IMG/VR virus record: IMGVR_UViG_3300040801_001383
Coordinates: 1 to 21,942 of that record
DNA length: 21,942 nt
Reading direction: 5' to 3' (one strand)
Source of the DNA: a virus
The notes beneath the pieces are model-generated. The model was not told the DNA's origin and searched no databases. It saw nothing but the letters and a program-made list of their open reading frames with translations. Made by a program: the position numbers and the translations under genes. Numbering within the stretch: position 1 is the first letter of the stretch; every line of letters starts with the position of its first letter. This document shows positions 65 through 19,916 of the stretch, piece by piece.

Positions 65-1306
65 ATGAAAATAGCAATGACAGCACCAAGAATTAGGCTT
101 ATTATTGCTGATGAAAATTACAAAGAACAACTTTATTGGCTATCGTGTGTTGCCAGTGATCTCAGAAGAGCAAGAAATGATATGATGAGAAGTTGTCTAG
201 TATATTGGCAAAAACAGATCAAAGGAGAAGATGTCCCCCTAAAGGATAATGGAAAACATTTAGAGTATAATACACATATACGGCGAGAATTGACAGAAGA
301 TTATGAGTTTGCTAATTCCACGTTGTTGTGGGAAGCGGCTTATAGAACAGCACAAATATTTAAAGCCAAAAAAAAAGATATTATCAAAGGAGACTGTAAT
401 CTCCCGATGTTTAAAGACAAGTCAATTCCTGTGCGAGGCTTGGGTACAGAGAAAAGTCCTAAAAGTAAACTTTGGGTTGAGGACGGTGTATATTATTTTA
501 AACCTCTTAGTTTAAATGGGATAGTATTTAAATTTGTGAATATCCACAAAGATAATAGTCTGAAAGTTATTCTTGGAAGGGTTATTGATGGTGAATATAA
601 ATTTGGTGATTCTCAGATAATAAAGGATGGCAAAACATGGTATTTACATATGTCATATAGTTTTGAACAAGATATGTCTACTAATAAGCTAAATCCTGAT
701 ATTGTTTGTGGTGTTGATTTAGGCTGGTCGATCCCTGCGGTTTGTGGTTTGAATAAAGGTTATAATAGAGTGTTTTTGGGAGATAGTCAGCAATTACAAA
801 GATTTAAAACTCAAATTAAGAATCGGAGAAAGAATTTAAGTAGGCAAAGAAATAATTTAGAATCTGGGCACGGCAAGATTTGTTCCATGAAAGCGTTGGA
901 TCGTTTATCCTGCAAGGAAAGTAATTTTGTTAAAACATATAATCATACTATAAGCAAAAATATAATTGATTTTTGTTTTAAGCAACAAGCAGGTACAATT
1001 CATTTAGAAAAATTAAATAAAGAGGTTAAGAAGAATAAATTTTTAACAGCTTATTGGTCTTATTATCAATTACAAAATATGATAGAATATAAAGCGAAAA
1101 AGGAAGGAATAGGAATAAAATATATTGATCCTGCTTACACTAGCCAGATGTGTTCTGAATGTGGACATACAGCGAGAGAGAATAGAAAGACACAATCTGA
1201 ATTTGTTTGTATTGAATGTGGATATAAGGGGAATGCGGATTATAATGCAGCGGTGAATATTGCAAGATCAACAGAAGTTAAAGTAAAGGCGAAAATCGCT
1301 TCGTAA
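65..1306 (+). CDS. tnpB: TnpB-family RNA-guided RuvC nuclease (IS200/IS605 OrfB type)
   Basis: This is a TnpB-type protein, an RNA-guided DNA endonuclease encoded by IS200/IS605-family elements and the ancestor of Cas12. Counting from ATG 65 (413 aa), RuvC-I is GVDLG with Asp218, RuvC-II is HLEKL with Glu315, and RuvC-III is NADYNAAVNI with Asp392. A four-cysteine zinc ribbon (Cys363, Cys366, Cys382, Cys385) lies before the last Asp. The length is normal for TnpB. A GTG at 56 is in frame, but it sits inside the AGAAGGTG ribosome site that serves ATG 65, so ATG 65 is preferred. No TnpA is in the window; it could lie upstream or be missing. All three acidic residues are present, so this does not look like a nuclease-dead repressor derivative. 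The guide-RNA scaffold of TnpBs normally overlaps the 3' end of the gene, which would place it around 1200-1360 here. That placement is inference. Confidence 0.9.
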   Translation: MKIAMTAPRIRLIIADENYKEQLYWLSCVASDLRRARNDMMRSCLVYWQKQIKGEDVPLKDNGKHLEYNTHIRRELTEDYEFANSTLLWEAAYRTAQIFKAKKKDIIKGDCNLPMFKDKSIPVRGLGTEKSPKSKLWVEDGVYYFKPLSLNGIVFKFVNIHKDNSLKVILGRVIDGEYKFGDSQIIKDGKTWYLHMSYSFEQDMSTNKLNPDIVCGVDLGWSIPAVCGLNKGYNRVFLGDSQQLQRFKTQIKNRRKNLSRQRNNLESGHGKICSMKALDRLSCKESNFVKTYNHTISKNIIDFCFKQQAGTIHLEKLNKEVKKNKFLTAYWSYYQLQNMIEYKAKKEGIGIKYIDPAYTSQMCSECGHTARENRKTQSEFVCIECGYKGNADYNAAVNIARSTEVKVKAKIAS

Positions 1307-1361: not shown

Positions 1362-2654
1362 ATGATTTATTTGAAAAATTGTCCAATTTGTGAATCTGAA
1401 TTATGGCACGATTTAGATTATTTGAGGAACAAAGAGGTATGGGTTGATAAAGATTATTTATATGAAGATCCTGTGGGTTTTAAGGTTTGCGAAGAATGCG
1501 GTTTTTTGACTTATGATTACCAACAAGATGTAGTTTTAAAACAAAGATATAATCAAAACAGCAAGTTGGTTACGGCTAATAATATTATAACTCAAAACAG
1601 GAAAAAATATTATCATGAATTATTTTTAGAAGAATTTATGAAAGATATTAAAGGTAATGTATTGGATTATGGCTGTGCGACTGGATCTTTTTTGAAATGG
1701 ATAAAAGAAAAAACTTCATGCAGTGTTTACGGTGTAGAGATAATAGAAGCATTTGTAGCTTTTGCCAGGCAAGAATATTCTGTTGACATAACTGATGACT
1801 TGCAGTTGTTTAATGACTTTGTAAAATTTAATTTTATATCATTATACAAAGTTTTGGAACATTTACAATATCCTCATACAGTTTTATTAGACTTAATAAA
1901 TAGATCGACTGATGATGCTTTATTTTACATAAGCGTTCCAGTCTGGTTTGATATGGAGTTTGATGAGACATCAGGGGAGCTTACTGATAGTTTTGAAAAA
2001 TATTATCATCTTAATCATGTGAATGTATTTACATTTAATTCTTTTCATAATCTTTTGAGGAAAGTCGGATTGAAAATAATAAAATCAAATTCTATGATGT
2101 ATGGACATACGGTATTGTGTGAAAGATGTGAACCAGATTCAAATTACGATAAAGATGATTATAGATTAGTTGAGTTAGCATTACAGAAACAAAAAAATGC
2201 TTTTGAGTTGTTTCAACAAAAGAGATTTGAGGAAGCATATAAATTATGTCCAGATTATATTGATGCATATATCATGAATTGTTTTACAAAAGAAACGATG
2301 AAAGATTTTAACGTGCAAATTTCAATTTTAGAGGAAGGGCTTGAAAATAATCCGGGTTCTACTAAATTAAGGTTGCAATTAGCACGAACTTTGTATCAAT
2401 GGGATGAGAACACGCCTGATAAGCAGTTTTATTCTAATAACATTAGGCGTGCTGAAGATATTTTGCTTGATTTGTTAAATGCAAAGCCTGGATTTGAGGA
2501 AATTTATAATATTCTGGGTATGATTGAAGCAAAATACAAAAAGAACTATAAGAAAGCAAGAGAATATTTTTCTAAAGTTTTAGAAATAAATCCTTCCAAG
2601 TATGGCGAAATTACAAACTTGGTTGGATGGCTATGGAGGGAGGCTGTAAGATGA
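1362..2654 (+). CDS. Zinc-finger class I SAM methyltransferase with C-terminal helical (TPR-like) repeats
   Basis: This 430-aa protein has a class I SAM-dependent methyltransferase core. An N-terminal zinc-binding pair (Cys7/Cys10 and Cys43/Cys46) resembles the N-terminal zinc module of sugar C-methyltransferases and related families. The SAM-binding motif I, VLDYGCATG, is at residues 100-108, an acidic GVEI strand follows, and a motif-IV-like region VLEHL is at 164-168. Residues from about 270 to 430 are alpha-helical and end in a TPR-like unit (KAREYFSKVLEINP). That tail may bind a protein or carbohydrate partner. A GGGAG ribosome site at 1348-1352 serves ATG 1362. The gene overlaps the next one by ATGA. 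With a CMP-sugar synthetase and a radical SAM enzyme behind it, a role in modifying a sugar or glycan is a reasonable inference, but the substrate cannot be read from the sequence. Confidence 0.75.
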   Translation: MIYLKNCPICESELWHDLDYLRNKEVWVDKDYLYEDPVGFKVCEECGFLTYDYQQDVVLKQRYNQNSKLVTANNIITQNRKKYYHELFLEEFMKDIKGNVLDYGCATGSFLKWIKEKTSCSVYGVEIIEAFVAFARQEYSVDITDDLQLFNDFVKFNFISLYKVLEHLQYPHTVLLDLINRSTDDALFYISVPVWFDMEFDETSGELTDSFEKYYHLNHVNVFTFNSFHNLLRKVGLKIIKSNSMMYGHTVLCERCEPDSNYDKDDYRLVELALQKQKNAFELFQQKRFEEAYKLCPDYIDAYIMNCFTKETMKDFNVQISILEEGLENNPGSTKLRLQLARTLYQWDENTPDKQFYSNNIRRAEDILLDLLNAKPGFEEIYNILGMIEAKYKKNYKKAREYFSKVLEINPSKYGEITNLVGWLWREAVR

Positions 2655-3322
2655 TTGAAGAAAAGATCGAAGAAAAGAAAGTGATAGCTTTAATTATAAT
2701 GCGTCGTGGTTCGACTGGCATAAAAAATAAATGTATGGAAAAGCTTGGCGGGAAACCGCTTGCTAAAATAATGATTGATAAATGTTTTGAAAGTAGATAT
2801 ATTGATGATGTCTATGTTTCCACTTCTGATGATGAATATAAAGAAATTGTTCGGGAGTGGGGATGTAAAGTCATAGATCGTCCTGTTGAGTTGTCAGAAT
2901 GGGATGTTCCAAATTTAAATGTTTACAAACATGCAGTTACAGTGCTTGACATAGAAGATGATGATTATGTTGTTTGTATAGATATATGCAAGCCTATGAC
3001 AACAGTTAAAATGATTGATGATGTTATATCAGTAATGCATCAAGGATCCTTTGATTCAGTTTTCACAGTTAAGCCTTATTCTTTTCAGTTAGCAGATGAT
3101 AAAAATGCAGTAGTTAGACAAAAACTTGGCAAAAAGCCTTTTATGGCTGCTTTCGGTGCCGTAAGAGCTTTTACGAAAAAAACAATAAAAGATTCCAAAC
3201 TCGGTACTTGGGGAAAGGGAGAAAAGCATAATGATATTCCCCGTATCCCGAAGTATCATTTTGATATAAACGATATAGAAGATTTTATCGCGGTTGAATA
3301 TTTGATGATGGCTGGATTTTGA
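2651..3322 (+). CDS. CMP-nonulosonate / acylneuraminate cytidylyltransferase-like (NeuA family)
   Basis: NeuA-family enzymes transfer CMP from CTP to a 2-keto acid sugar such as sialic, legionaminic or pseudaminic acid, or KDO. This 223-aa protein begins with the family's nucleotide-binding loop, IALIIMRRGSTGIKNK (residues 12-27), followed by LGGKPL. It continues with VSTSDDEY (57-64), an RP pair at 77-78, DSVFTV (135-140), and a C-terminal YHFDINDIEDF (202-212) that matches the usual DI(D/N)..EDF metal/substrate region. The segment that is normally LQPTSPLR reads CIDICKPMTT here, so substrate choice may differ. A strong GGAGGGAGG at 2635-2643 fixes ATG 2651 as the start, overlapping the methyltransferase stop as ATGA; an in-frame ATG at 2627 lacks such a site. 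No synthase (NeuB type) is in the window, so the sugar would come from the host or from genes outside it. Confidence 0.75.
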   Translation: MIEEKIEEKKVIALIIMRRGSTGIKNKCMEKLGGKPLAKIMIDKCFESRYIDDVYVSTSDDEYKEIVREWGCKVIDRPVELSEWDVPNLNVYKHAVTVLDIEDDDYVVCIDICKPMTTVKMIDDVISVMHQGSFDSVFTVKPYSFQLADDKNAVVRQKLGKKPFMAAFGAVRAFTKKTIKDSKLGTWGKGEKHNDIPRIPKYHFDINDIEDFIAVEYLMMAGF

Positions 3323-4074
3323 TGAGAAAATTAGAAATAACAACACAAGTGCCTTGTTTGAACTTTTGTAATTATTGTCCTCAAGATAATTTAATTAAAA
3401 ATTATACTGGCAATAAGTTTTTAACACTTGATAGATTTAAGCATTACTTATGTAGTATATCGCGTACTATAAATATACATTTCTCAGGATTCTCAGAACC
3501 ATTTTTGAATCGAAAGTGTATTGATATGATTGAATTTGCTTATGATGGCGGTCATAAGATTGTTGTTTACACAACAACCATGGGTATGACCAAATCTATT
3601 ATAAACAAATTATCGGCTATAGATGTAGAGTTGTACATTCATATTCCTAATGTTTCCACACATTTTAATATAGATATTTGGTCTAGGAATGTATTGGAAA
3701 TAAGCAAAAAAATGGATTTTAAATTTGTTATCGTTTTGCCGTACAATGATAAAATAAAGCAAGTTATAGAGAAAACAAATAAATCGATTATTCAGCAACC
3801 ATTGATAAACAGAGCTGGAAATTTAGATATTTTGCAGATGGCACCTTTGACAGGGAAAGTAAAATGTCGTGGCAAGAGATACAATCAGAATGTTCTATTG
3901 CCGAATGGTGATGTGGTATTATGTTGTATGGATTATTCACTACAATATAAACTAGGTAATCTTAATGAGATATCTTATGATGAATTATTCAAATCAGATG
4001 TTTACAGAGAAGTTATAAAAGGAGAACGGGATGATTTGATATGTAGAAAATGTTCAAGGGGGGTGAAAGCATAA
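3322..4074 (+). CDS. Radical SAM enzyme with SPASM-like C-terminus
   Basis: This 250-aa protein carries the CxxxCxxC signature of radical SAM enzymes (Cys12, Cys16, Cys19, in PCLNFCNYCP), which binds the 4Fe-4S cluster that cleaves SAM. A SAM-contact motif, FSGFSEPFLN, follows in place of the usual GGEP. The C-terminal third has a cysteine-rich SPASM/twitch-like arrangement: a KCRG, then LPNGDVVLCCMDY, GNLNE, YDELFKSD, and a final ICRKCSRG. This layout is typical of enzymes that act on peptides, proteins or sugars through auxiliary clusters. ATG 3322 overlaps the previous stop by one base (TGATG), so the gene is translationally coupled to the cytidylyltransferase; an in-frame TTG lies at 3319. 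The protein is short for a full SPASM enzyme. Its substrate is unknown; co-transcription suggests glycan precursor or virion-protein modification. Confidence 0.8.
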   Translation: MRKLEITTQVPCLNFCNYCPQDNLIKNYTGNKFLTLDRFKHYLCSISRTINIHFSGFSEPFLNRKCIDMIEFAYDGGHKIVVYTTTMGMTKSIINKLSAIDVELYIHIPNVSTHFNIDIWSRNVLEISKKMDFKFVIVLPYNDKIKQVIEKTNKSIIQQPLINRAGNLDILQMAPLTGKVKCRGKRYNQNVLLPNGDVVLCCMDYSLQYKLGNLNEISYDELFKSDVYREVIKGERDDLICRKCSRGVKA

Positions 4075-4075
4075 C

Positions 4076-4468
4076 ATGGAAGATGCACACGACGTATCAA
4101 ACAATAACAAATATGATGAATTGGACGATATAGATAGACGATTAATTGAATTAAAGCTGCAAACACCTAGTCTAACATATTGCAAGTTGTCTGAAATTGT
4201 AGGAGTTAATCGGTTTGTTGTGTCTCATAGAATGAAAAAAAACAAGGTAAAACAAGCTATAAATGATTTCCATAAATCAGCATTGCAAATATTGTTAGAT
4301 AGTCAAAATGAAGCTGCATTAGTATTGAGACAGCAATTGAAAAGCAAGGATGAGAAGATTGCTCAAGGGGCAGCTAAAGAGATAATAAAGGGTGTATTGA
4401 GCGATAGTGTAGATATCCCCAAGGGGCTTATGATAGAATTTGTCAATGGACACAAAAAAGAAAGTTAA
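4076..4468 (+). CDS. terS: Terminase small subunit-like DNA-binding protein
   Basis: This 130-aa protein is placed directly before, and overlaps, the large terminase gene, the standard position for the small terminase subunit that recognises phage DNA and regulates packaging. Residues about 20-60 read as a helix-turn-helix (DRRLIELKLQ, YCKLSEIVGVNRFVVSHRMK), followed by a charged, probably helical oligomerisation region. It starts one base after the radical SAM stop, with a purine-rich AAGGGGGG upstream at 4057-4064. Sequence similarity alone would be weak; the call rests on the helix-turn-helix, the size and the neighbour. Confidence 0.7.
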   Translation: MEDAHDVSNNNKYDELDDIDRRLIELKLQTPSLTYCKLSEIVGVNRFVVSHRMKKNKVKQAINDFHKSALQILLDSQNEAALVLRQQLKSKDEKIAQGAAKEIIKGVLSDSVDIPKGLMIEFVNGHKKES

Positions 4469-15105: not shown

Positions 15106-16128
15106 ATGTTATCACAACAAGAAGTATTAGAACAATCAAGAAACGCATTTAATCAATCACATGAAGTATGGGTTAAGCATTGTGAAGAGAATGGAAGATT
15201 GTATCGTGAACAAGGAAATTCATTTCAAGATATAGCATTCCAGGGGTTAGGCAAAACTTTATTATGTGTAGCTTATGGCCCTAGTACTGAAAAATATATG
15301 GATACTATTACTAAGTATAAAGACAATGTAGATGTGGCTTGTGTTGATAAAGCATTTGGCAAATTATACGAAAATGGAATAAAAGCTAAATATGTTTTTC
15401 TTGCTGATGCAGGGATAAGTTATGAGCAGTGGTGCGAACCATTTTTGGATTATACTGAAGATATGGTTTTGTTATCAAATATAAATGCTAATCCGAAATG
15501 GACAAAAAACTGGAAAGGTAAAGTTATATTTTATGTCAATAAAGATAATATAAATAGCGAAAAGATATATTCTAAAGTATCAGGTTGTAATGAACTCATT
15601 CCGGCATCAAGTAACGTGGGAAACGCGGTTGTTATTTTTGCTGAACAAGTTTTAAAATATGATCAATATCTGTTGGTAGGTTATGACTACTGCTGGCGTG
15701 ATGATGAAAATTATTATGCTTATCATGATAATAATAAAAGATATTGGATGAAGCATTATGTTAGTATCGATCAATTTGGTAATCTTATAAATACGAGTGG
15801 TAATTTATTGTTTTCGGCAAGATGGTTGTCTGATTATGTTAAAGCGAAATTGCCGCATGTGAGAATATTTAATTGTAGTGGCTCAGGCATACTTAATCTA
15901 GGTTCTGCAAACTTAGAAGTTAAATTATCTAAGGCGGGACAAAGGAAATTAACAGATAGAGAGAAACAGCTTTTTATATTAAACAGAAGCAAGTCGATCA
16001 TGGTTAATCCTGAGGATGGTAATAATAAACTACAAGAAGTTTTAAGAGATAATAATGTTGTGAATGTTATAGTAAATTTTATAAGTGATGAAACTATAAA
16101 ATTCATGGAGGCTCAATGGGCAAATTAA
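15106..16128 (+). CDS. DUF115 / MptE-like, Maf-type glycosyltransferase-like protein
   Basis: This 340-aa protein has the plan of the DUF115/MptE-like family, which includes the motility accessory factors (Maf) that add nonulosonic acids to flagellin, and MptE of pterin synthesis. An N-terminal helical region precedes a Rossmann-like core. A short GPS loop is at 58-60, then VDVACVDKAFGKLYENGIK (75-93) and YVFLADAG (96-103). The second half has SSNVGNAVVIFAEQVL (168-183) with LLVGYDYCW (189-197) and a nearby His207. A closing IFNCSGSGIL (254-263) is the family's usual end of the core. The place is odd: between the tail-terminator and tail-tube genes, after GAGGT at 15098. With the NeuA-like gene upstream it suggests glycosylation of a virion protein. 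The donor and acceptor are not known. Confidence 0.65.
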   Translation: MLSQQEVLEQSRNAFNQSHEVWVKHCEENGRLYREQGNSFQDIAFQGLGKTLLCVAYGPSTEKYMDTITKYKDNVDVACVDKAFGKLYENGIKAKYVFLADAGISYEQWCEPFLDYTEDMVLLSNINANPKWTKNWKGKVIFYVNKDNINSEKIYSKVSGCNELIPASSNVGNAVVIFAEQVLKYDQYLLVGYDYCWRDDENYYAYHDNNKRYWMKHYVSIDQFGNLINTSGNLLFSARWLSDYVKAKLPHVRIFNCSGSGILNLGSANLEVKLSKAGQRKLTDREKQLFILNRSKSIMVNPEDGNNKLQEVLRDNNVVNVIVNFISDETIKFMEAQWAN

Positions 16129-16319
16129 AGTATATAGATCATAGATATATTTTTATACCAAAATTAAAAAATCATAAAACAGGAATTAGATTTCCAAATT
16201 CTTCAAATATTGCAATTGTAACTACAAGAGAAAAAATAAATTTATTGAAAATGAAAAATGGAAATAAAGAATGTTGGGAAGAAGTAAAAGAAGAGGAGGA
16301 AGTTAATGGCGATTGGTGA
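16116..16319 (+). CDS. Small basic phage protein before the tail tube, 67 aa
   Basis: This 67-aa product starts inside the end of the DUF115 gene (ATG 16116, GGAGG at 16107-16111) and overlaps the tail-tube start. The first half is basic and beta-like (KYIDHRYIFIPKLKNHKTGIRF) and the end is very acidic (KECWEEVKEEEEVNGDW). It resembles short phage proteins that carry a strand followed by a 'leucine-lysine, then W-E' tail, but no family is certain. Its own GC-poor codon use matches its neighbours. A role as a small tail or connector accessory protein is a guess. Confidence 0.55.
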   Translation: MGKLKYIDHRYIFIPKLKNHKTGIRFPNSSNIAIVTTREKINLLKMKNGNKECWEEVKEEEEVNGDW

Positions 16320-17343
16320 TAGTGCAAGATTTGGGTATGAAGCAAGTCTTGGCATAGCAGAAGAGACTACATTCGGAACAAAAGTGGATTCTTTTGCATA
16401 TGTTGAGTTTAATAGTGAATCTCTTAAGTTAAATAGAGAAGAATTGAAACTTGAGAGTATTAATACTTCCAGGGATTATATAAAACGCATGTTAGGCCAG
16501 GATAGTGTCGAAGGCAGCATCGAGTTGTTTTTTAATCCTGCAGAGGACGCATGTGTGAGATTGATGAAACAAGCTATGGGTGGTACTGTATCGAGTTCCA
16601 CGTTAACGGCTGGTGCGATAGCTCATACTTTAAATGCTGGAGACATGGAGAATAATCAATCAACATCTGGTGCAGCTGATGTTAAAAGTTTAAGTATTCA
16701 ACTTTCAATAGGAGATACTTCTACAAATTCAATCGGATGGGATTACCTTGGATGTAGAATTAATAGTTTATCACTGAAAGGTGAGATTGGTAGCCCGGTT
16801 GTAATGACTACTGAAATTATAGGAAAAGCAGCTTCAACAACTGCAAGTACGCCAACGGTTTCTTTTTCAGACATAAAACCTGTAAATTTCACAGGAATAA
16901 CATTGCAAACTGGAGATTCTATTACCAATGTTTCAGCTGAAACTTTTATTGGATTTGAGTTAACTATAAACAATAATCTCATTGGTGATACAAACGCTAG
17001 GGGACTGGGATCAAGAACTGTTAATGTATTACCGCCTTCCAGGCGAGAGGTAATGCTTAAGTTAACACAAAGATTTGACACACTTACTTCATACAATAGA
17101 GCTATCCAAGGCACGATGACTGCTATTAAAATAATATTGGATTCAGAACAAACAATAACAGCCGGTGGATCCACATATTCAACTGCTATAAATTTGCCAG
17201 CATGTTATTTCAATTCCAATCAGCCTGAGTTTAGTGATTTTGGGATATTGACACATGAAGTTGAAGTGAGTGCAATAAAAGAAAATACGACTTCTTCTTA
17301 TTCTGTGCAAATTCAAATAAATAATGCTACGAATAATTATTAA
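16306..17343 (+). CDS. Major tail tube protein (Phage_tube_2-like)
   Basis: This 345-aa protein would build the non-contractile tail shaft. It opens with GYEASLGIAEETTFGTKVDS, a frequent start of tube proteins, followed by FNSESLKLNREELKLESIN with a basic stretch, VEGSIELFFNPAEDACVRLM, and later a repeat of the strand plan (SLSLKGEIGSPVVMTTEIIG, then FIGFELTINNNL). The end is VEVSAIKENTTSSYSVQIQI. Two homologous-looking beta sandwiches in tandem are typical of Phage_tube_2-type proteins. GAGGAGG upstream of ATG 16306 is strong, fitting a highly made protein. No sheath gene follows, so the tail is most likely flexible and non-contractile. Confidence 0.8.
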   Translation: MAIGDSARFGYEASLGIAEETTFGTKVDSFAYVEFNSESLKLNREELKLESINTSRDYIKRMLGQDSVEGSIELFFNPAEDACVRLMKQAMGGTVSSSTLTAGAIAHTLNAGDMENNQSTSGAADVKSLSIQLSIGDTSTNSIGWDYLGCRINSLSLKGEIGSPVVMTTEIIGKAASTTASTPTVSFSDIKPVNFTGITLQTGDSITNVSAETFIGFELTINNNLIGDTNARGLGSRTVNVLPPSRREVMLKLTQRFDTLTSYNRAIQGTMTAIKIILDSEQTITAGGSTYSTAINLPACYFNSNQPEFSDFGILTHEVEVSAIKENTTSSYSVQIQINNATNNY

Positions 17344-17354
17344 GGAGATATTAA

Positions 17355-17666
17355 ATGATAATAAATATTGACGAATTAATACCAGAAGATAAAACAATAA
17401 TTTTTCATAATGAGGAATTAAAGATATCGAATGAAGTGCCTGTCAAAATGATTTTAAATCTAATGAAATGTAATGCTGATATGCAAGAAAATCCTGTTGA
17501 TGAAAAAATAAATTTAAATTTAATAAATGTTTTATCAGATATAATCAAATTCAAAAATCCTGATTTTGATAAACAAAAATTTGCAGACTCAGTTACATTA
17601 AGAGAAATTGGAGAATTATCAAAGGTCATATTTGACATTAAAGATGATATAAAAAAAAACATATAA
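17355..17666 (+). CDS. Tail assembly chaperone, upstream (G-like) part
   Basis: The 103-aa, acidic, helical product lies between tail tube and tape measure, the fixed place of the tail assembly chaperone. Its composition (MIINIDELIPEDKTIIF, then LKISNEVPVKMILNLMKC, then VTLREIGELSKVIFDI) fits the lambda gpG-type class: strands followed by helices, no Cys-rich or membrane region. AAGGAG supports ATG 17355. The frame ends at TAA 17664 just after an A9 run. A second frame takes over exactly there (next entries), so this is likely the short product of a frameshifted pair. Confidence 0.8.
   Translation: MIINIDELIPEDKTIIFHNEELKISNEVPVKMILNLMKCNADMQENPVDEKINLNLINVLSDIIKFKNPDFDKQKFADSVTLREIGELSKVIFDIKDDIKKNI
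17651..17659 (+). other. A9 slippery run: predicted programmed frameshift (net +1 or -2)
   Basis: Nine consecutive A (17651-17659) lie in the codons ATA AAA AAA AAC of the chaperone frame. The extension frame is closed upstream by a TAA at 17650-17652 and open from 17653. The chaperone frame stops at 17664-17666, so the shift has to take place within 17653-17666, which is the run itself. The required shift is +1 or -2; a -1 shift would give only six or so residues before a stop at 17678. Either ribosome slippage on AAA codons or RNA-polymerase slippage on A9 (loss of one A) could do this. Confidence 0.7.
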
Positions 17667-17829
17667 AAAAGTTGATATAAAGCTAATTATAGGGTGCTAT
17701 TGTGAATTTTATCATTTGTCAGGAGAACAGGCTTTAAACGAGATTTGGCCTGTTTTTTTGTCTAATTTGGAATATAGAAATTATATTATCAACAAAGAAA
17801 TAGAATGGCAAAAACAACAGAAGAAATAA
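17653..17829 (+). CDS. Tail assembly chaperone, frameshifted (T-like) extension
   Basis: There is no start codon of its own that would explain this frame; it continues the chaperone by a net +1/-2 shift at the A9 run. It encodes about 58 residues, including GCYCEFYHLSGEQALNEIWP, then VFLSNLEYRNYIINKEIEW and QKQQKK. This looks like real coding sequence (Tyr/Trp-rich, helical, charged end) and matches the usual style of chaperone extensions ('W..l...e...y......ewq..q'). It overlaps the tape-measure start by 25 bases, as lambda T overlaps H. The long form would recruit tail-tube subunits to the tape measure. Confidence 0.7.
   Translation, partial: KKTYKKVDIKLIIGCYCEFYHLSGEQALNEIWPVFLSNLEYRNYIINKEIEWQKQQKK
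17726..17759 (+). terminator. Terminator-like stem-loop inside the chaperone extension
   Basis: AACAGGC (17726-17732) pairs perfectly with GCCTGTT (17748-17754) around a 15-base loop, and the stem runs into seven consecutive T (17753-17759). That is the form of an intrinsic terminator, though the loop is long. It lies 46 bases before the tape-measure start and within translated sequence, so it may act as a partial attenuator or be silenced by translating ribosomes. Confidence 0.45.
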
Positions 17830-19916
17830 GATTAGTCGTTAAATCTGAACTAGATAAATTAGTTAAAGATTTAAAAAAGACTAATAACGAAATTGCAGAA
17901 TCCACAAAACAAAATAAGGGATTAACCAGCTCTCTTGCTAATGTGAAAGTTGGTTATCTGGCGTTGGCTAGCGGTCTTGTTGCTGTTACAGCTGCTTATG
18001 CTAAAACTGTTACGGCGGCATCTGATGCTGAAGAAGTAACGTCAAAGTTTAATACAGTTTTCAAAGGCGTTACGAAAGACATGGATGCTTCTGTCAGACT
18101 TTTGACTGATAGCTATGCAATGTCTACAACAGAAGCCAAGAAACATCTTTCTTCTGTACAAGATTTATTAGTTCCTATGGGCATGGCTTCTGATAGCGCA
18201 GCTCTAATGTCAGAGGAAGTTGTTAGATTAGCTGCAGACTTGGGTTCTTTTAACAAAATGCCAACCGCGCAAGTAATGGCAGACATACAAAGTGGATTAA
18301 TTGGTAATTTTGAAACCATGCAAAAGCATGGTGTCGTTATGAATGAAACAGTAATAAGACAAAAAGCGTTAAATTTAGGCTTAGACATTGGGAAAGGTGT
18401 TATTGACGCAAACACAAAAGCGCAAGTTGCTTTTAAGTTAATGCTTGAGGGATCGGCAGCCGCGATTGGCGATATGGATAGAAAACAAAACTCTTATGCT
18501 AATACAGTAAAAAGATTAAATGCTTATTTTGATGATTTTATGGTGGAAATAGGAAAAGAGTTATTGCCGGTATTGACTGATTTGATGAATCAAATTATAG
18601 ATACAACTAAAAGCTCTGAATGGTTTTTAAATGCTATTGTATCCACCACAAAAGGCATAGCACAAATGATAAGTTATGCTATATCGTTAGTTGAATGGAT
18701 AGGCAAGATAGGCGATTTTTTTGAGAGACATTCTGGTAAAATAAAAATTTTACATGCTGCATCGGCGGGCTTGTGGGGCGATGTTATTAAAAATTATAAA
18801 AATTACTTAGATCATGATAAAGAGATAGCCAAACAGCAAGATGCACGAGCAGCTAAAGTCAAGGAAGTAGCGAACATAGAAAAAGCATCAATTGCTGATT
18901 TAAACAATTTCAGAGTGGAAGCTAGCGAAAAACAGAAAAAAACAATGGAAAATGTGCATAATTCGCACAAGGCTACATTGGATGAATATAGGCAATATAT
19001 ATATGAGCAAAAGGAACTCGAGGAGTTAGAGGAAACCGAAAGGAGAGATAGGCTTCTAGAAGCATTTGGAGAGGATTTAGAGAAGCGGGAAGCTATTAAA
19101 CGGAAATATGAAGAAAATGTCGCTGCAATGGAAGCTGAATTTTTTAAACAAAAATTTGACGCTACGTTGGTTCATACTCAAAACGTGTTAGGCGTAATGA
19201 GTCAAATGTCATCACAATTAACTAATTTGTTTAATCAACGTATGCAAAACGAACAAATAGCATTAGAGAATAATTATAAACATGCAACAGACATTTTAGA
19301 TAAACAATATCAAGACGAGAAAAAAAGAATAGAGCAAAGCAATAGAGATCAGGAAACAAAAGATAAATTGTTGCGGGAATTAGATGAAAAATATGCTAAA
19401 GACAAAACAGCTTTGGATTCACATATGGAATCTGAAAAACGACGCATTGCAAGAGATGGCGCAGCAGCTGCGAAAAAATTTGCTGTATTTGAAACAATTG
19501 TTAATACGTTGGCTGGTGCAATCGCAGCTTATAAATCTTTAGCAGCGATACCAATTGTTGGCCCTGCTCTTGGTGCAGCAGCAGCAGCAGCAATAACGAC
19601 TGTAGGAGTCAAGACAGCACAAGCCATAAAAGCTCAACCATTGCCAGCGGCGTTCGAGGGAGCGTTTATTAAAGGTTCAGCGCAAGGAACTCCTGTTCTA
19701 GCTGGTGAAAAAGGTAAATCAGAAGCTATTATTCCGTTTGAAAACGAAGAAGCAATGGAAAAACTTTCCGGATTCGGTACTACCCAATATGTGTTTAACA
19801 TAGATAATTTATATGCTACTGAAGATATACCTTCGGAAGTTGCCATAGCTATAGATAGAGCTTTATTGAAGCTACACCAAAATAAAAATTCTGCTTTTGC
19901 CGAGGCTGTAGTATGA
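17805..19916 (+). CDS. Tape measure protein
   Basis: This 703-aa protein sets tail length and is ejected or moves into the host during infection. It starts with a coiled-coil region (residues 1-45), then a hydrophobic segment VGYLALASGLVAVTAAYAKTV (about 49-69). A region typical of tape measures follows (SFNKMPTAQVMADIQSGLIG, then FETMQKHGVVMNETVIRQKAL). The middle and following part (about 350-560) is long charged coiled coil. A second hydrophobic stretch is near 565-605 (AIPIVGPALGAAAAAA). The closing KGSAQGTPVLAGEKGKSEAIIPFENEE is the usual end signature. At about 0.15 nm per residue it predicts a tail near 105 nm. ATG 17805 has only a weak ribosome site, so translation may be coupled to the chaperone extension that overlaps it. 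Confidence 0.88.
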   Translation: MAKTTEEIRLVVKSELDKLVKDLKKTNNEIAESTKQNKGLTSSLANVKVGYLALASGLVAVTAAYAKTVTAASDAEEVTSKFNTVFKGVTKDMDASVRLLTDSYAMSTTEAKKHLSSVQDLLVPMGMASDSAALMSEEVVRLAADLGSFNKMPTAQVMADIQSGLIGNFETMQKHGVVMNETVIRQKALNLGLDIGKGVIDANTKAQVAFKLMLEGSAAAIGDMDRKQNSYANTVKRLNAYFDDFMVEIGKELLPVLTDLMNQIIDTTKSSEWFLNAIVSTTKGIAQMISYAISLVEWIGKIGDFFERHSGKIKILHAASAGLWGDVIKNYKNYLDHDKEIAKQQDARAAKVKEVANIEKASIADLNNFRVEASEKQKKTMENVHNSHKATLDEYRQYIYEQKELEELEETERRDRLLEAFGEDLEKREAIKRKYEENVAAMEAEFFKQKFDATLVHTQNVLGVMSQMSSQLTNLFNQRMQNEQIALENNYKHATDILDKQYQDEKKRIEQSNRDQETKDKLLRELDEKYAKDKTALDSHMESEKRRIARDGAAAAKKFAVFETIVNTLAGAIAAYKSLAAIPIVGPALGAAAAAAITTVGVKTAQAIKAQPLPAAFEGAFIKGSAQGTPVLAGEKGKSEAIIPFENEEAMEKLSGFGTTQYVFNIDNLYATEDIPSEVAIAIDRALLKLHQNKNSAFAEAVV
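19575..19592 (+). repeat. (GCA)6 trinucleotide repeat in the tape-measure gene
   Basis: Six perfect GCA units encode six alanines within the second hydrophobic segment of the tape measure. Gain or loss of units would keep the frame and alter tail length only slightly. Confidence 0.8.

Follow-up and report, generated by a model that had tools for sequence, protein, structure and literature searches.

A conserved long A/T run and a flipped extension frame at a phage tail-chaperone junction, with RNA polymerase slippage as a candidate mechanism

Introduction

The frameshift that extends phage tail assembly chaperones is a textbook ribosomal event. In the virus record IMGVR_UViG_3300040801_001383, the frame overlapping the end of the chaperone gene sits at +1/-2 and the crossing lies on a run of nine A's. 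How is the chaperone joined to this extension: by a shift of the ribosome, by slippage of RNA polymerase, or only apparently, in a record from which a base is missing? We addressed this question in the window, by which we mean the whole stretch analyzed, a linear virus record of 21,942 bases, and in the equivalent junctions of its relatives.

An extension frame at +1/-2 behind the tail assembly chaperone

The window carries a tail tube, a chaperone, an overlapping extension and a tape measure, in that order, together with a Mu-type portal, a terminase and a phrog_1005 capsid protein. The junction and its flanking genes, all on the forward strand, are laid out as follows.

16306-17343, forward: tail tube protein (345 aa); PF18906 Phage_tube_2, E 1.7e-26; phrog_290, E 4.7e-28
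17355-17666, forward: tail assembly chaperone, short form (103 aa); assigned by an HMM of 12 relatives, by position and by its model
17651-17659, forward: A9 run, proposed slippage site; a run of 9-11 A/T occurs at the same site in 29 of 38 distinct junctions
17653-17829, forward: T-like extension frame, 58 codons plus stop, at +1/-2 to the chaperone; assigned by an HMM of 12 relatives
17664-17671, forward: TAAAAAAG, the chaperone stop running into A6 and G
17805-19916, forward: tape measure protein (703 aa); phrog_2854, E 3.8e-6; phrog_31409, E 1.3e-4

As in G/GT pairs, a gene lies between tube and tape measure and a conserved out-of-frame extension overlaps its 3' end. The chaperone itself is only weakly like PF23857 (Phage_TAC_19; 18.5 bits, below the cut-off of 27), a family that matches 6 of 15 relatives at E up to 0.01 (best 3.7e-4). 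Its name is supported by gene position and by fold neighbors in BFVD, 11 of the 50 listed being named tail assembly chaperone, with none reaching E 0.001.

Other genes of the window lie further left. An MptE-like domain protein (PF01973, E 8.5e-17) is encoded at 15106-16128, in the tail block just upstream of the tail tube. To the left of the terminase, three genes at 1362-4074 resemble sugar or surface modification functions, namely a methyltransferase with TPR repeats (PF13489), a cytidylyltransferase of the CMP-sugar type (PF02348) and a SPASM iron-sulfur protein (PF13186). The left end (56-1306) holds a TnpB-like gene (PF07282, E 1e-24) with an in-frame A9 of its own, starting at 368.

The extension frame opens directly after its own TAA (17650-17652), runs for 58 residues (codons 17653-17826) and stops at 17827-17829; the chaperone ends at the TAA at 17664-17666, and the tape-measure ATG at 17805 overlaps the extension by 25 bases. 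The possible shift window is 17653-17666, the same 14 bases that a preliminary description of this locus had delimited. That description had the A9 run fill these bases; the run does lie at the crossing, but only seven of its nine A's fall inside. In the assembled sequence, the extension can be reached from the chaperone only by a net +1/-2 shift, and the window shows no in-frame X_XXY_YYZ heptamer with a -1 extension, the arrangement typical of programmed -1 frameshifting. What the overlap does hold is a run in the range sought in slippage genes (about nine or more A or T). Downstream of A9, a run of A6 (17665-17670) belongs to an A_AAA_AAG heptamer (17665-17671) that is out of frame by one base; an A10 transcript, or one more A upstream, would be needed to bring it into the chaperone frame. 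By frame arithmetic, A9 encodes a product of 103 aa, A10 of 108, A8 of 157 and A11 of 158, so that a -1 shift yields only a few additional residues, as had been anticipated.

Because the extension frame lacks ATG and GTG codons and has its earliest TTG at 17716, the whole extension domain would be obtainable by fusion only. Separate translation of the extension, by re-initiation or coupling, is accordingly very improbable in the window, where that TTG lies beyond the first modeled helix (to 17712), even if a relative, L068, has an extension-frame ATG that overlaps the chaperone stop.

Relatives recognize the extension as coding sequence

HMMs were built from 12 relatives, leaving the window out, and run on the six-frame ORFs of the window. 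They recovered the chaperone at E 9e-20 (next best window ORF, 0.077) and the extension frame at E 1.5e-10 (next best, 0.56). In a BLASTP comparison with the extensions of 21 relatives, that of the window matched L007 (2e-7), L003 (3e-5) and both L002 and L004 (2e-4); translations of the two remaining frames of this DNA, set against the same 21 relatives, reached no better than E 0.24. The extension is modeled as three helices with a pLDDT of 92.9, the first spanning residues 9-20, and the chaperone model reaches 89.6. The extension has no match in Pfam and no confident match in PHROGs, and a PDB fold search with chaperone and extension returned no match with E up to 0.001. A structural comparison with VIA-align gave a best Z of 5.6, too low for use.

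Altogether, sequence comparison shows that the extension is real coding sequence. The hidden T-like extension that the preliminary description had placed at a net +1/-2, overlapping the tape measure, was thus recovered with relatives.

Long A or T runs are the rule at the junctions of relatives

We gathered 37 relatives by their tail tube protein, which served as the anchor gene, and added more from alignments. The window and 47 loci make 48 junctions, from which 10 near-copies were removed to leave 38 distinct ones. Within L002-L061, 19 loci were left out as truncated, too distant or without an assignable pair (L006, L014, L018-L020, L029, L031, L036, L037, L049 and L051-L059), as were, on the same grounds, L098, L099, L120 and L127 of ten further contigs, the other loci retrieved with these ten being duplicates of contigs already included; an overlapping pair may be present in L018, L036/L037, L051 and L055, which stand outside the count. 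Pairs in clades B and C and in L008, L039, L067 and L068 were assigned by gene position and visible similarity, not by HMM. A scan of genome contigs added two loci to the search results; among genomes from the phylum of L061's genome, 3 of 292 matched, including L061's own, and the other two loci are weak. The chaperone, capsid and tape-measure proteins found no relative as queries in viral contigs, nor did the window tail tube among isolated phages, and the base count at the junction is therefore not settled by near-identical phages.

A run of 9-11 A or T lies in the overlap of 29 of the 38 distinct junctions, the window included (A9 in 15, A10 in 7, A11 in 1 and T9 in 6), and none of the 38 has a run of length 8. 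Outside the overlaps, these loci contain just 8 runs of that kind over ~247 kb, from which 0.069 would be predicted for the overlaps. Every codon phase is represented among the starts of the 29 long runs (6, 16 and 7), and the A9 of the window shares its phase with those of L004, L045 and L067. We compared these runs with codon sampling in which the amino acids were fixed and the in-frame heptamer was retained: a run of at least 9 was expected in 17.7 of 32 junctions and seen in 29 (P 5e-7 if independent), although P values of this kind are too small because the 38 junctions are related. Codon-level support is weak in clade C (P 0.56-0.84 for long runs given the heptamer), since lysine triplets make long runs likely there anyway. 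Overall, these sequences point to a moderate excess of long runs over codon sampling.

Nine junctions have no long run. Six of them carry classic ribosomal heptamers (A_AAA_AAG in L007, L041 and L061; G_GGA_AAC in L008 and L039; G_GGA_AAG in L060), and the other three, L068, L017 and L048, have their extension at +1. Together with the window, these are the only +1 junctions (4/38), with L079 identical to L068 and L050 a near-copy of L048; the extension lies at -1 in the remaining 34, including the nearest relative, L002, whose tube is 59% identical. Run and overlap are thus conserved among the homologues, and it is the second frame that differs in the window. The +1 relatives are of two kinds. 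L068 and L079 (3547-4129), whose records are identical over the whole locus, are close to the window and have no run above A5. L017 (~4352-4449) and L048 (~4368-4468) are distant and read TTT then C where their -1 relatives have T9.

The prevalence of -1, down to the nearest relative, is what one would expect if this record lacked a base between the chaperone and its extension, through an assembly error or a real recent deletion. One absent base in A9 or A6 would restore an ordinary -1 shift, the A_AAA_AAG lying there off frame by a single base, and singleton frameshifts are described as often being errors or indels (PMC3711429). We nevertheless consider a missing base, the simplest of the alternatives, unlikely but by no means remote. 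A miscount of A9 is not the obvious explanation, given that A9 is the family norm and length 8 is absent. As A9 is also the commonest length and shares its codon phase with L004, L045 and L067, the frame difference sits somewhere between run and extension, and not obviously in the run. The second A9 of the window (368-376) lies in an uninterrupted TnpB-like ORF, and a tblastn match (query 4-403) continues through it without a break; this single case argues against A's being lost routinely in the assembly. The other genes of the window look intact, and two of the three other +1 cases occur in two records each (L068/L079 and L048/L050). The earlier suspicion that A9 is a miscalled A8 or A11 is weakened by these data, with A9 found in 15 of 38 junctions, window included; a missing base, if there is one, could equally well belong to the A6.

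We further considered whether the ribosome itself shifts +1 or -2 on the A run, with P-site tRNA-Lys re-pairing on AAA. By inspection of ATA AAA AAA AAC ATA TAA, a tRNA paired with AAA would meet AAA again whether it moved forward or back. The direction of shifting, -1, -2 or +1, is reported to vary among tail phages (PMC5009743), and two relatives that lack a long run, L017 and L048, need a +1 shift at TTT-C. Every run of nine contains an in-frame X_XXX_XXX, so the ribosome could always shift there, and a slippery heptamer does not separate polymerase from ribosome. Against a purely ribosomal event, no downstream RNA structure stands out (z 1.02 in the window; mean z -0.02 over the 29 long-run junctions), and selection for runs of 9 or more, whatever their codon phase, goes beyond what a ribosomal heptamer requires. 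Among the heptamer-class junctions, downstream z averages -1.29 over five of the six (L061 absent), owing mainly to L008 (z -5.08). Upstream hairpins were unconvincing as a signal (mean z -0.56). We regard a +1 or -2 shift by the ribosome as distinctly unlikely.

RNA polymerase slippage as the preferred reading

The best, still unproven, explanation is that RNA polymerase slips on A9 and so makes the fusion. We put at a little under one half the probability of this reading as a whole, in which the locus is a G/GT-like chaperone pair of a long-tailed phage, with both forms predicted, and polymerase slippage is the cause. Faithful A9 transcripts would give the 103-aa chaperone, and minority transcripts with one A dropped (A8) or two added (A11) would give a 157- or 158-aa fusion with the T-like domain. 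An A10 transcript could open a further route to the extension, through a conventional -1 shift on A_AAA_AAG. By analogy with lambda gpGT, the fusion would link the tape measure and the tail tube. Polymerase slippage on A9 takes the assembled base count as right, which we infer as part of the explanation.

More tentatively, we extend polymerase slippage to the family: the ratio of short to long chaperone would be set by the polymerase on a conserved run of 9-11 A/T, not by the ribosome, leaving the extension frame free to flip, with the window as a natural flipped case. A small indel downstream of the run could move the extension from the family's usual -1 to +1 with the fusion retained, since slippage would yield transcripts in all three phases, as it is described to do in PMC1088944. 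Enterobacterial RNA polymerase is reported in PMC6260861 to slip on A or T runs from length 9 upward, with insertions more frequent than deletions. Lambda makes short and long chaperone products at ~30:1 (PMC5009743), and at such a ratio a low slippage yield would suffice.

Several observations favor the polymerase, without proving it. The absence of runs of 8 and the concentration at exactly 9 agree with the enterobacterial threshold given in PMC6260861; runs of 9 or more occur whatever the codon phase; and long runs exceed the codon-sampling expectation. A flipped frame would remain of use as long as products of more than one phase are made, which slippage provides (PMC1088944), and the ribosomal heptamers in 6 of the 9 junctions without a long run recall, by analogy, the split of modes seen for dnaX (PMC1088944 and PMC3711429). 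Other observations weigh against slippage. Because insertions outnumber deletions in PMC6260861, the window would have to draw on the less frequent product or on a +2, and flipping does not need slippage, since three junctions that lack a long run (L068, L017 and L048) are flipped. The window junction is known from one record, as assembled sequence. The preliminary description had placed slippage on a par with ribosomal shifting; the family comparison now tips the balance toward slippage, short of proof.

Judged from these comparisons, the feature is real, and a conserved long run with a flipped frame is more interesting than one odd A run. If many phages let the polymerase set the ratio, chaperone dose would depend on RNA polymerase. 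If polymerase slippage is true, annotation tools that seek heptamers would miss such genes, and members with a long run are predicted to tolerate a flipped frame. Within the titles and abstract openings of the literature searched, a scope that puts many subscription papers outside, we found no claim of polymerase slippage for a tail chaperone.

Comparison with known systems

The shift of Listeria phage PSA is +1 and leads into the same net frame as in the window, and to our knowledge the slip motifs of PSA and of phage Mu are not pure A runs. Mu shifts by -2, again into that frame (PMC5009743). The comparison with Mu and Listeria phages made in the preliminary description is fair on this basis, both phages being likened to the window by shift direction only.

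Lambda gpG/gpGT, joined by a -1 ribosomal shift, shares with the window the order of tube, chaperone, overlapping extension and tape measure (PMC5009743), a likeness of gene order. A short main form and a rare long form, as in lambda, would be expected in the window by analogy. The window differs in its +1/-2 extension on a pure A9, without an in-frame heptamer leading to the extension. In a tail-chaperone cluster, the GeneTack work measured frameshifting of 6-7% (PMC3711429).

Three isolates have a tube that matches clade C: Rossellomorea phage phiT1, Bacillus phage Jayan and Haloarcula virus HCTV-16. They share the gene order of the window, and their extension, too, overlaps the chaperone in a different frame. 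They differ from the window in shifting at -1, phiT1 and Jayan with A_AAA_AAG and HCTV-16, as annotated in its record, beside CTGGGAAAC; in the stretches of the three that were read, runs of A or T stay below 8. In phiT1 (L136, 3857-4407) and Jayan (L137, 3414-4003), the extension is annotated as a separate gene despite the A_AAA_AAG that joins it at -1, and from the sequence the frameshift seems to have been missed in the deposited annotation.

Thermus thermophilus dnaX and the IS elements with A9 resemble the window in their run of nine A's inside a coding overlap, and a run conserved in homologues with the same two-ORF layout is the criterion for slippage used in PMC1088944. The window differs from them in that its gene is a tail chaperone, its second frame is flipped relative to its homologues, and slippage here is predicted.
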